A stretch of 20,745 bases of DNA, taken from an uncultured Steroidobacter sp. GTDB taxonomy: Bacteria; Pseudomonadota; Gammaproteobacteria; Steroidobacterales; Steroidobacteraceae. The position numbers and the translations under genes were made by a program. Positions 3,364 to 10,376 of this stretch are shown here, in pieces. A model generated the notes under the pieces. It did not search any database, was not told the DNA's origin, and was given only the letters and a program-made list of their open reading frames with translations. The number at the start of each line of letters is the position of its first letter. Position 1 is the first letter of the stretch. The DNA is taken from positions 1 through 20,745 of the forward strand of contig CAMLEO010000103.1 in assembly GCA_946478975.1 (NCBI GenBank). The letters are read 5' to 3'.

Positions 3364-3966
3364 ATGTTCAGATCCGTGCTCCGGGAAGCACGCACTTGGT
3401 CCGGGTACTGGCGACGTCGAGTGGCCTTGTCCTGGGCACTGCGGGACAAGAGTGACCTCGCCTTCCCCGCGATGGTCCTGCTGCCGTTCCTGGTCCTCGG
3501 GACGATCGTTTATTTCGCCTACTCGACCCGGGGCAACTTCGACGGCACCAAGATCGACGCGGCGCTGAAACGCGAGGCCGAACTGCGCTGCCTGGCTGAA
3601 AACATTTATCACGAAGCCCGCGGCGAATCGCTGGAAGGCCAGTATGCGATCGCCGAAGTCACGATGAATCGCCTGGCCTCGCCGTTCTTCCCGAAGACGG
3701 TGTGCGAGGTCGTGCACGATACGCGCTGGGATCGGCTGCGCCGCCGGCTGGTCGCGCACTTTTCCTGGACGGCGTTCGAGATCCGCTCCGAGCCCACCGG
3801 CCCGGCCTGGGACCAGGCGATGCGGGTCGCGGAAACCGTCTACGACGGCCACAATATGTCGGTGGTTCCAGGCGCGCTCTATTATCACGCCACGTATGTG
3901 AAGCCGTATTGGGCGAGCTCGAAGACCGTGGTCGCAAAGATCGGCAACCACATTTTCTATCGCTAA
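3364..3966 (+). CDS. Cell-wall hydrolase of the SleB family, membrane-anchored
   Basis: A 200-residue protein with an Arg-rich cytoplasmic N-terminus, one transmembrane segment (about 34-53) and a periplasmic SleB/hydrolase_2 domain (about 72-200). Hallmarks are LAENIYHEARGES (77-89, holding the family's conserved glutamates), the following GQYAIAEVTMNR (92-103), and LYYHATYVKPYWA near the C-terminus (172-184). SleB enzymes are lytic transglycosylases that cut the glycan strands of peptidoglycan. Proteobacterial members are linked to wall remodelling rather than spore germination. The ribosome binding site is weak (AGGAAA about 12 nt upstream of the ATG). Its stop codon overlaps the stop of the convergent hybrid kinase gene by 4 bases, so no terminator separates them. 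Confidence 0.9.
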   Translation: MFRSVLREARTWSGYWRRRVALSWALRDKSDLAFPAMVLLPFLVLGTIVYFAYSTRGNFDGTKIDAALKREAELRCLAENIYHEARGESLEGQYAIAEVTMNRLASPFFPKTVCEVVHDTRWDRLRRRLVAHFSWTAFEIRSEPTGPAWDQAMRVAETVYDGHNMSVVPGALYYHATYVKPYWASSKTVVAKIGNHIFYR

Positions 3967-6900
3967 CGCGCAGTGTATTGCTGACGCAGCTTTTTGATCG
4001 CTTCGATCAGGTTGCGATACGCCTGATCCGCCGCTGCGGTTTTTTCGGTCGCAGCCAGCAGATCGCCAGCATCGCCCAGGCTTTCCAGCGTTTGAAATGT
4101 TTGTACCAGAGCGTGTGCGCCAACGGTCGCAGCGTTCGCTTTGAGACTGTGCGCGCTGCGTCTGAACTCCTTGGCATTGCCTGCCGTCAGTGCCGTCTGC
4201 AGACCGCTAAGTAATCGAGGCGCGCTGTCGATCATCGCACTCAACACCACTACCGCGCCCGCAGAGCCGGCTGCGGACACCAATTGATCCACCGCCGCTT
4301 GTGAATATTCCGTCGGCTCCGCCGTGGTCGCGGGCGGGCGAGTCGTCGCTCTGAGCGTGGCGGTCGCCATTGCATCCACATACCCTTGCTGTCGCTGCAG
4401 CACTTTGGCGAGCTCGTCGAGCTGCACGGGCTTGCTGATGTAATCATCCATGCCGGCGGCAAGACAACGCTCTCGATCGCCAGTCAGTGCATTGGCAGTC
4501 ATGGCCACGATGCGGGGCTGCTGATCCTTGGGCAGCTTCGCGCGAATCTCACGCGTGGCATCCAGGCCGTCCATCTCCGGCATCAACACATCCATGAGGA
4601 TCAAATCGTAGGGAAGCTGGGCCGCCGCCTTCACCGCCTCCACGCCGTTGGAAACAATATCGGCAGTTTGCGACAAGCGCTCCAGCAGCAGCTGCGCCAT
4701 GCGCTGATTCACGACGTTGTCTTCGGCCAGCAGAATGCGCAGCGGCGGCTGCACTCGCGGGCGACTGACGCTGAATCGATAAGGAAACGTTTCAGTCGCA
4801 TCCGTGAGCACCGCGGCCAGGGCATCGTACAGATGCGATTGATGCAAAGGTTTCGTCAGCACGCCCTGCACATACTGACCCGCGGCACGCGCGGCGATGC
4901 TGGCTGGCCCATGCGCCGCGAGCAAAAGTATCTTCATCGGATGCGAACCGCCGAGCGCGCGAATCTCGCTGGCCAGCTTCGCACCATCCATGGTCGAAGA
5001 ACTGAAATCGATCAGTGCCACGTCGAGCTGTCGTCCGCTGCGTACGATCTCCATGGCTTGCGCGGGAGAGCTCGCATCGATCACCGTCATGCCCCACGAG
5101 TTGCAGTACTGGCGCAGCATCTGGCGAGCCGTCTCGTTCTCTTCGACCACCAGCACTCGCCGGCCCATCAAGCGTGCGGGATCGATCACGCCGGTGCGCG
5201 ACGGCACGATGTCGGCCGATGCGGCCTGCATGGACAGCGTGACCGTGAATGTCGAACCGACACCGACCGTGCTCTCGACTTCGATCTCTCCGTACATCGC
5301 TTCCGCCAGTCGTTTGCAGATCGCGAGGCCCAACCCGGTTCCGCCGTACACGCGCGTGGTCGAAGCGTCGACCTGGCTGAATACTTCGAACAGCCGATGC
5401 CTGCGCTCCGGCGGAATGCCGATGCCCGTGTCGCGCACGGCGAGCCGAACTTTGTAACGATCGACGCCCACCGGCACGCCATCGATATACGCAACGACTT
5501 CGCCTCGCGCGGTGAACTTCACTGCATTGGACAGCAGGTTCACCAGGATCTGACGAATGCGCGCGGTGTCGCCGATGAAATAGTCCGGCAGTTTCGGATC
5601 GTAGTTATAAACCAGCTCCAGCCCTTTTTCTTCGGCGCGATTCGCCACCAGGTCCAGCGACTCTTCGACGCACACCCGCAGGTTGAAAGCCTGATGTTCC
5701 AGGTCCAGGCGTCCGGCTTCGATCTTGGAGAAATCCAGGATGTCATTGATCAAGTCGAGCAGCACATTGCCGCTCAGGCGCGCCATCTCGACGTACTCGC
5801 GCTGACGATCGTCGAGGTTTGTATCCTTGAGCAAACCGGTCGCACCGATGACCGCGTTGAGCGGCGTGCGAATCTCGTGGCTCATGGTGGCAAGAAAGCT
5901 CGACTTCGCCGCGCTCGCCGACTCCGCCTGGTTCAAACGTTCGAGCTTCATCGCCAATAACACGGCAGCCTCACGCAGCACGTCGATCTCATCCGCAAGC
6001 CAGGACGCTTGCTCGCCATCGCTCAGCAGCTCTCGCGCTTCGGAAAACTTCTGCTCGGCGACCACCGGCAATGCTCGCGTGATGCGCATCAGCCGACGCA
6101 AAACCGGCCACGCGACCAGCACCAGGCCGAGCGACGACAACGCCAGGCCGCCGGCGATCGCCCAGGCCATTTCATTCAAATCAGCGAGGATTCGGACTTG
6201 CGCTGCTGTGTCATCGACGATGAACAATGCCTCCGGCCCGCTGCCGCGTCCGACGACGCGCTCGGATAGTTCATGCACTTGCAAGAGATAGCTGTGCTCA
6301 TTCACGGATACCGTGACGAGGGTGTTGGGCGCCGGCTCCGTGCTTTGAGTGCGCAGACCGCTCAGCACAGGAATCAACAGGGGCGCGTTTGTCAGCACGC
6401 GCAGATGTCGGCCCCACAGGGGTGGCAACCGTTCGTCCGAAGGCGCGCCCGCTTCCATCAAGCCCACATCGGCACCGGCAACACGTCGAAACGCCACCAG
6501 CTGATCCGCGGCGAGCTGACTCACGACAATCGTAATCTCCCGGCCGTCGCGATCGAACGCCGGGACGACGGCGTACAACACACACTCGCGAGCACAGATC
6601 AAACGCGTGAGCGGCTCATGCGTCGTACGCACTCGCTGCAATGCTGCCTCGACCACGATCGGTAGCGACGACAGCAAACCGTTGCTCGCCCAGCGAGCAA
6701 TCGGGTCGCCCTCGGCGGAGTAATACTCGATGCGAGTCAACGCAGATAACAAACCCGCGGCGGGAGACGCATCGGTCAGATCGGAGGATTGCAGCCCACG
6801 CGTGCTGGTCACCGCGGCCATGTTGGTTGCGAGCCGCGTCAGCTCTTCGCCCGCGCGCTCCAGCAACGCGTCGAGCGAGATGCCGAAGCGCTCCATCTGC

Positions 6901-9164: not shown

Positions 9165-9185
9165 CGTGCGCTGGCTCCGGGCTCG

Positions 9186-10376
9186 TCATGCGGGCAGCGT
9201 GAAGCGAAATTCGGCGCCACGGTCTTTCTCCGCATCCGCCCAGATCGTGCCGCCGTGACGCTCGACCAGCCGCCGCGCCAGCGCGAGCCCCATGCCGAGC
9301 CCTTCGAACTCTTCCTCCGCGTGCATGCGCTGAAAGAATCCAAACAATCGCCCGGCGTACTTCGGATCGAAACCGGCGCCGTTGTCCTTGATGGAGTAAA
9401 TGACGCGCCCCGGCTCTCGCCACCCGTTCACTTCGATCCGCGCACGCTCGGCGTGGCGAGTGAACTTGAAGGCGTTCGACAACAAACTTTGCAGTACCAG
9501 CCGCAGCAGGTCGAAGTCGGCTTCGACTTCGGGCAGTTCACCGATCGCGATCTCGACCTGGCGATCGGGCTCGGCAGCGCGCACCTCGTCGATGGTTTTG
9601 CTCGCCAGCGCGGCGACGTCGACCTTCTGTCGGTGCAGCGGATGATGAGTCAGCGATTCCATCCGCGAGAGCACATCGGCCCGCAGCGCCAGCTTCGCCG
9701 CACCGGCGACCACATGATTCAACAGGGTCAGCGAGCGAGGCGGTATCTGTTGCGCGCAATCATTCGCCACGATCTTCGCCATCTGTTCGAGCGTCCGCAC
9801 CGGGGCGCGAAAATCGTGCGAGATCATGCGGCCGTATTGATCCAGGTCCGCTTTGGTTCGCGCCAGTTCGTTGCGCAACTCGTCTGCACTCGGCTCGAAC
9901 AATGTGATCAGCAGGCCGCCGACATTCCCGGACTCGTCCTGGATCGGTGCGAACGAGAAGGTCATGGTTTGCGGTTCATGCGCCGGATCGAATGTGACCG
10001 GCTGATCTTCGAGCTGTACCGGCTCTCCATGATGGGCGCGCTCGAAACACAGGCGCATTGCCGGCCACGCTTGCTGCCAGCTGCGCGCGAAATCCTCGCC
10101 AAGCGCATTCGAATGTTGAATTGCAGCCAGCTGAGCGTAAGCGTCATTGTAGATCTGCGCGCGTTGCCGGCCCCATGCCACGCACGAGGGCACGGGAAGG
10201 CCGAGACAGATGCCGACCGCGGTTCGCAAACCAGGCGGCCACTGCTCAATGGGACCGAGCGAGCTGCTGCTCCAATCCCTCGCCTCGATGCGTTCGCCCA
10301 TAGCCCCGCCGCCGGACAACCAAACACCCGGGATTTCTCCGGAGCGATCTTCCTGCCGCTTATGAGTGACTGGCAC
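9186..10376 (-). CDS. Soluble PAS-domain sensor histidine kinase
   Basis: A 396-residue cytoplasmic kinase with no membrane segment. The first part (about 15-160) matches the PAS-type module that starts GGGAMGERIEARDWSSSSLG and ends in SFAPIQDESGNVGGLLITLFE. HisKA follows (about 177-245) with phosphoacceptor His187 in RMISHDFRAPV, then HATPase_c with N-box LLSNAFKFT (298-306), DNGAGFD (331-337) and GLGMGLALARR (359-369). The start is a GTG at 10374-10376 with GGAAG about 10 nt upstream. The internal ATG at residue 26 would cut into the conserved GG-x-MG region, so the longer form is preferred. It is the first gene of the five-gene run, and its immediate partner is the stand-alone receiver. 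The signal is unknown; the PAS domain shows no haem or flavin motif that I can identify. Confidence 0.93.
   Translation of the reverse strand: MPVTHKRQEDRSGEIPGVWLSGGGAMGERIEARDWSSSSLGPIEQWPPGLRTAVGICLGLPVPSCVAWGRQRAQIYNDAYAQLAAIQHSNALGEDFARSWQQAWPAMRLCFERAHHGEPVQLEDQPVTFDPAHEPQTMTFSFAPIQDESGNVGGLLITLFEPSADELRNELARTKADLDQYGRMISHDFRAPVRTLEQMAKIVANDCAQQIPPRSLTLLNHVVAGAAKLALRADVLSRMESLTHHPLHRQKVDVAALASKTIDEVRAAEPDRQVEIAIGELPEVEADFDLLRLVLQSLLSNAFKFTRHAERARIEVNGWREPGRVIYSIKDNGAGFDPKYAGRLFGFFQRMHAEEEFEGLGMGLALARRLVERHGGTIWADAEKDRGAEFRFTLPA

Follow-up and report, generated by a model that had tools for sequence, protein, structure and literature searches.

A single-lobe PstS-like protein and an adjacent porin-like barrel in a Steroidobacter signalling operon: a candidate envelope-spanning cassette

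Why should a half-size relative of the phosphate-binding protein PstS and an outer-membrane barrel be encoded in one operon with two histidine kinases? This question is raised by a minus-strand run of five genes at positions 3963–10376 of a 20,745-nucleotide (nt) stretch of DNA from an uncultured Steroidobacter sp. (assembly GCA_946478975.1, contig CAMLEO010000103.1), the whole of which is called the window here. The open reading frame (ORF) listing gives gaps of 21, 9, −8 and 14 nt between these genes (Table 1), in agreement with the original prediction, which was made from the sequence and regarded the run as a transport-free sensing unit spanning both membranes. Its remark that there is no permease or ATPase of the ATP-binding cassette (ABC) type and no DNA-binding regulator also agrees with a Pfam scan, in which none of the 18 distinct window proteins was of these types; no PstCAB was found beside the PstS-like gene among the same 18 proteins. 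Neither the Rfam scan nor the tRNA scan of the window gave a hit, and promoter and terminator scans were not richer than those of shuffled sequence.

The conserved core of the locus is a single-lobe PstS-like exported protein together with an adjacent 16-stranded porin-like barrel, and the hybrid kinase is a Steroidobacter-lineage variant of the transducer. By analogy with the YfiBNR system, these parts may form an envelope-spanning signalling cassette that consists of a barrel, a periplasmic adaptor and an inner-membrane transducer, a reading to which we assign a probability of about 0.55.

The conserved pair and its transducers

Scanning of genome contigs with the PstS-like alignment gave four loci, all in Steroidobacter or Peristeroidobacter. 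All five genes follow in the same order in each of them, with 62–82% identity, so the arrangement is not a matter of chance. In a family-level sample of 200 genomes, eight genomes were matched; a high-scoring window-like protein was present only in the four already known, and there were seven weaker places besides, two of them in these four genomes.

In a wider sample of gammaproteobacteria, the PstS-like protein was found in at least 58 of 369 genomes, which is a lower bound because at most nine candidates were scored per genome; the searches with the barrel and the sensor likewise scored only the top few. All 83 PstS-like places, one of which is locus L001, were fetched with their flanks. 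The resulting count of 86 PstS-like proteins in 78 loci leaves out L002–L004 and the named plasmid loci L100–L103, and L118 gave no protein at E 1e-4. A barrel adjoins 68 of the 86, with the PstS-like gene first in 43 cases, the barrel first in 21 and both in 4. A barrel was counted as adjoining if it lay on the same strand within 300 nt, or anywhere within 4 kilobases (kb) on the same strand where the PstS-like frame exceeded 200 amino acids (aa) owing to an early start. A transducer with a homologous sensor is located within 4 kb, on either strand, of 29 of the 86 proteins, and another signalling gene within 1.5 kb on the same strand of a further 15. Each paralogue or near-identical copy was counted by itself, and the counts therefore do not represent independent events.

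The association is also seen from the other sides. The barrel search matched at least 62 of the 369 genomes and gave 35 barrel places that were new relative to the PstS-like search. Twenty of these, mostly the strongest (the remaining 15 are weaker), were fetched: a PstS-like gene adjoins 14, three are cut by the contig and three have none. The sensor search gave 35 sensor genes in at least 33 of the 369 genomes, and by coordinates 29 of them are near a PstS-like gene or a barrel. The barrel and sensor profiles had been widened by iteration on the same loci.

Pfam-based outputs refer to 32 transducers with a homologous sensor. GGDEF was found in 26 of them, EAL in 23 and HisKA/REC/Hpt in five, namely those of the window and of L001–L004. 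Outside the Steroidobacter group, 26 of 27 contain GGDEF, and L054, the sole non-kinase transducer without it, runs off its contig. The PstS-like protein and the barrel are co-conserved with the kinase in all four close loci, and more widely with homologous-sensor transducers, so that the lack of co-conservation that would have refuted the original prediction was not observed; its definition of the unit by kinases fell, since outside the Steroidobacter group the barrel, the PstS-like protein and the homologous sensor go with GGDEF/EAL. Labels for methyl-accepting chemotaxis proteins, GGDEF, EAL and LSGGQ in the fetched loci are simple letter patterns. By this labelling, the ATPase letters LSGGQ, the only transporter sign searched for in the relatives, occur within 4 kb in 4 of the 78 loci.

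The tree of PstS-like domains, with 93 rows, divides in two at a branch of good support (100/97). One row was dropped from it as too short, the window was added, and the bootstrap had not settled. A 117-aa frame fragment in L045 was left out of alignment A6. Many forks are unresolved because the domain is short. The first half (47 rows) holds all 34 dCache-linked rows. The second (46 rows) holds none of them; of the 12 rows that lie near a chemoreceptor-like gene (either strand, within 1.5 kb), 11 fall here. On the tree, 9 changes suffice for the dCache label vs 27.9 in shuffles, none of 500 of which was as low. Within the dCache half, the window protein clusters with those of Steroidobacter, and replacement of the GGDEF output by a kinase in this lineage is therefore the simplest reading.

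Genome G001 has a second-clade set elsewhere, composed of a barrel, a PstS-like protein and a chemoreceptor-like gene (L093), and in G003 there is a matching set, the third gene of which is truncated at the limit of the fetched region. Near the second-clade PstS-like genes of L089, L107, L109, L115, L119, L120 and L121, an opposite-strand kinase and a receiver protein of 450–630 aa are encoded about 1–3 kb away; they are perhaps another two-component partner, and these seven loci were scored as having none in the signalling-neighbour counts and tree labels. L108 (G014), L112 and L105 carry consecutive PstS-like and barrel genes, or two facing sets with chemoreceptor-like genes, which suggests local duplication of the pair. 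Tandem PstS-like proteins with no detected barrel, in L082 and L095, constitute their own long-branched group. The plasmid-borne pair of L102 (Alteromonas macleodii pKD01) adjoins a type IV gene set of clustered regularly interspaced short palindromic repeats (CRISPR).

Anatomy of the PstS-like protein, the barrel and the kinases

The PstS-like protein of the window taken alone gives a weak PF12849 match (E 0.012, below the cut-off), and it is not among the 25 of 49 diverse relatives that match this family at E ≤0.01 (best 7.7e-08). At the same threshold, PBP_like_2 was the only Pfam family among the 49. A profile of these 49 sequences matches solved PstS chains, the best being 4exl with E 8.6e-10; the separate matching pieces are individually weak. 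Hence the half-size PstS-like exported protein of the original prediction stands by virtue of the profile, the support from the window protein itself being weak. Each of the four best PstS chains is matched in one middle stretch (78–188 of 4exl, as 78–142 and 150–188, and 101–219 of 1twy, for example), which from PstS anatomy we take to be lobe 2, and the chain 4h1x is matched weakly and out of order. The protein is about one lobe long, its leader included, and does not have the two lobes of PstS-type proteins.

In PstS, phosphate is held by a GSG[ST] loop. This anion-binding loop was not found at residues 61–110 in any of the 49 PstS-like proteins, and the letters occur elsewhere in only one of them, in the leader region. 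In its place, histidine stands at one position in 31 of the 49 and phenylalanine near there in 47. The lack of the loop, together with the match to lobe 2 only, makes a flytrap presentation of phosphate doubtful, and a match to the middle of PstS without the loop favours an adaptor role. Judging by sequence, it is likelier that the protein is a periplasmic adaptor than an ordinary phosphate-capture protein. A fusion of a PstS-like protein with a transducer was sought in the fetched loci only; the single long case inspected, L111 (751 aa), proved to have an extended low-complexity leader and no transducer part.

No Pfam family was found for the window barrel, even at E up to 1. Its predicted model is a 16-stranded porin (pLDDT, the predicted local distance difference test score, 79.5; pTM, the predicted template modelling score, 0.78), so the porin-like character proposed earlier was confirmed at the level of a model. 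The 16-stranded fold is shared with OprO/OprP, which are the nearest folds, and their lead in Z over other porins is slight, about 1.5–2, in a VIA-align comparison that covers the listed porins and does not exclude other porin families. The OprO/OprP family PF07396 does not match the window barrel and weakly matches 17 of 68 members of the barrel family. The putative constriction loop L3, where the model has low confidence, has a mean conservation of 0.92 and is, together with L2, the most conserved loop. Against solved structures, the barrel profile matched only one designed protein.

HisKA, HATPase_c, two Response_reg domains and Hpt of the hybrid kinase are all above the Pfam cut-off, as the REC-REC-Hpt architecture of the original prediction implied, and the phospho-sites H400, D690, D829 and H976 are conserved; the protein thus has the complete set of phosphorelay domains. 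The REC1 stretch (about residues 643–770) is missing in the L002 kinase, so that REC1 may not be essential, and the route of the relay is probably via REC2. The dCache_3 family (PF14827) does not match the window kinase at E 0.01; it matches 12 of 21 members of the kinase family and 26 of the 32 homologous-sensor transducers. The pattern C-x3-C-x6-P (C161, C165 and P172 in window numbering) is invariant in 24 of 24 aligned sensors and in all 32 transducers. Against solved structures, the sensor profile gave only designed, ribosomal and other chance-level matches.

The upstream kinase has HATPase_c (E 3.4e-23), PAS_4 below the cut-off and no HisKA match in Pfam; the stretch SHDFRAPV in its sequence resembles a histidine box. 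Its four homologues have no membrane segment by hydropathy count, and this PAS-type kinase is probably cytosolic. Among the loci examined, such a kinase is encoded on the same strand directly upstream of the PstS-like gene only in L001–L004, and it is a lineage-specific part of the module. The lone receiver (Response_reg, E 2.4e-21), present in all four Steroidobacter and Peristeroidobacter loci, has, by inspection of its sequence, the acidic pair E9/D10, the acceptor D53, T83 and K105.

A candidate signalling route and its rivals

In the proposed cassette, the 16-stranded barrel would lie in the outer membrane, the small exported lobe-2-related protein would serve as the periplasmic adaptor and the two-pass inner-membrane protein with its dCache_3-like CxxxC sensor as the transducer. 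The state of the barrel, that is, solute passing or bound at the conserved L3 loop, or its assembly, might alter the engagement of the adaptor with the sensor, after the manner of YfiB and YfiR acting on YfiN. In the window, the phosphoryl group would then pass from H400 to a receiver, most likely D829 of REC2, further to H976 of Hpt and finally to a free receiver. For this endpoint, the closest candidate is the lone receiver, which may also integrate the input of the PAS kinase. The same front end would, in relatives, drive c-di-GMP (cyclic dimeric guanosine monophosphate) synthesis or breakdown. The order of the genes, their domains and co-conservation, the modelled barrel fold, the missing anion loop and the invariant CxxxC are observed. 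The physical contact, the direction of control, the signal and the phosphotransfer route are the parts of this scheme that we infer.

To our knowledge, there are few examples of outer-membrane proteins that report to signalling at the inner membrane. YfiBNR of Pseudomonas aeruginosa consists of an outer-membrane protein, a small periplasmic protein and the inner-membrane YfiN, and the first of these sequesters the second, which otherwise inhibits YfiN (PMC4655355 and PMC4887326). The present module resembles it in its three tiers, in GGDEF as the usual output of relatives and in the presence of the PstS-like, barrel and GGDEF transducer genes in one operon in many of them, with a porin as the outer-membrane partner. 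However, YfiB is a lipoprotein rather than a 16-stranded porin, the small periplasmic partner in the present module is PstS-like, and the window output is a hybrid kinase.

Several observations weigh against the proposed cassette. There is no detected adjacent barrel for 18 of the 86 PstS-like proteins, two of which are at contig ends. For 42 of the 86, some of them in loci cut by the contig, no transducer with a homologous sensor was found and no signalling gene on the same strand within 1.5 kb, and the pair may therefore also function with no transducer of its own. Six of the 35 sensor genes are near no place found, one of them starting 218 nt from a contig end. On the tree, the chemoreceptor label needs 10 changes vs a value of 11.5 in shuffles, 35 of 500 of which were as low, and is hardly clustered beyond the half in which it occurs. 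A YfiR-type domain was not matched in the 49 PstS-like members (Pfam, E ≤0.01), so that the comparison with YfiBNR is functional only. Finally, the AlphaFold model of the PstS-like protein, built with 22 sequences, is poor (pLDDT 50.6), and none of the structural statements made here rests on it.

According to the original prediction, the PstS-like protein binds a solute admitted by the barrel and signals to the kinase sensor. Such a role would resemble that of the partners in LuxP-LuxQ, NspS-MbaA and PstS-CtpL. LuxP-LuxQ, NspS-MbaA and TorT-TorS combine a periplasmic partner of binding-protein type with a hybrid kinase or a GGDEF/EAL transducer and need no permease, which is their likeness to the present module; LuxP, NspS and TorT are full two-lobe proteins that are not known to have a dedicated barrel, whereas here about one lobe and an adjacent porin are found. 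The PstS of P. aeruginosa is of full length, and the present protein differs from it in being about half its size and in lacking the anion loop. A PstS-type protein is accompanied by a receptor in both cases, chemoreceptor-like genes being near 11 of the 46 second-clade rows. In phosphate chemotaxis of P. aeruginosa, PstS acts on the transmembrane receptor CtpL and also serves PstABC (PMC9864684). In fact, activation of kinases, cyclases and chemoreceptors by binding proteins is established (PMC9602780 and, for PstS-CtpL, PMC9864684), and the homology to part of PstS and the nearest, if only slightly leading, OprO/OprP fold would suit such a role. However, the protein is only about as long as one lobe, and none of the 49 examined has the GSG[ST] loop. 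A two-lobe clamp is impossible unless the protein dimerises or binds at another surface, and we consider ligand presentation unlikely. A transport-free unit spanning both membranes still fits the anatomy; the presentation of a ligand by the PstS-like protein is the doubtful part.

According to another explanation, the porin and the PstS-like protein act together in import or as a chaperone at the outer membrane, the dCache sensor has a ligand of its own that it binds directly, and the clustering reflects co-expression only. In fact, dCache domains commonly bind small ligands directly, and the 42 PstS-like proteins without a signalling gene found nearby, as well as the pair on pKD01 without one among the listed genes, speak for this. 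Against it, the type of PstS-like protein and the dCache sensor sort together on the tree, all 34 dCache-linked rows falling in one half, and no ABC permease or ATPase is among the window proteins scanned; in our opinion, this explanation is improbable as well. That the genes are ordinary neighbours in an unspecific operon with no shared function is the least credible alternative, largely refuted by reciprocal class-wide co-conservation from the PstS-like, barrel and sensor sides, even if short gaps alone are no proof of function.

Returning to the envelope-spanning cassette, a bolder form of it can be offered tentatively, as a conjecture about which we are rather sceptical. The porin would itself be the receptor, and the occupancy or gating of its L3 would be read by the single-lobe PstS-derived messenger and passed on to the CxxxC dCache sensor. 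Coupled in evolution to c-di-GMP enzymes, to a phosphorelay and probably to chemoreceptors, this front end would serve outer-membrane sensing as a general plug-in.

Sensing by means of binding-protein partners and without transport is already known. Its variant described here, in which a dedicated porin is combined with a single-lobe partner and with exchangeable outputs, appears to be new, and neither the porin and PstS-like pair nor the triple was found described in the open PMC literature, as judged by titles and the beginnings of abstracts, subscription papers being outside this scope. If the pair signals, it provides a common and testable route from outer-membrane traffic to c-di-GMP, a phosphorelay or chemotaxis. 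This would also explain small proteins annotated as "phosphate ABC transporter substrate-binding protein" where no transporter is encoded among the neighbours in the gene tables, which are incomplete.

Features of the window and neighbouring genes

Table 1. Positions of the operon genes and of selected regions within their products
Feature	Positions	Strand	Remarks
PAS-type sensor histidine kinase	9186..10376	-	396 aa, GTG start
Lone receiver (CheY-like)	8775..9164	-	129 aa
Exported single-lobe PstS-like protein	8274..8765	-	163 aa including leader, GTG start; module core
16-stranded porin-like outer-membrane barrel	7091..8281	-	396 aa; module core
Barrel residues 122-156, between strands 5 and 6	7814..7918	-	by analogy constriction loop L3
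Hybrid kinase: transmembrane segment, periplasmic sensor, transmembrane segment, HisKA, HATPase, REC1, REC2, Hpt	3963..7076	-	1037 aa
Periplasmic dCache_3-like sensor region, about residues 42-302	6171..6953	-	membrane segments read from sequence
C161-x3-C165 of the sensor, P172 after	6582..6596	-	invariant

The operon is flanked on one side by a cell wall hydrolase gene (PF07486; 3364–3966, plus strand), the 3' end of which shares 4 nt with that of the hybrid kinase gene in a tail-to-tail arrangement. A pectate lyase (PF03211, E 3.1e-65) is encoded at 1172–2278 on the minus strand, and an ORF at 19068–20744, which runs off the window end, looks by eye like an exported beta-helix protein; from these two, the genome is perhaps that of a polysaccharide degrader. 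The minus-strand gene at 12827–14800 encodes a beta-propeller protein (PF09826, E 2.3e-13) with a leader that resembles by eye that of a lipoprotein. At 14883–16319, an LCM/TIGR00027-type methyltransferase gene is divergent from that of a phosphatidylethanolamine-binding-like protein (PF01161), and a ClC channel with CBS domains is encoded at 17144–18877.

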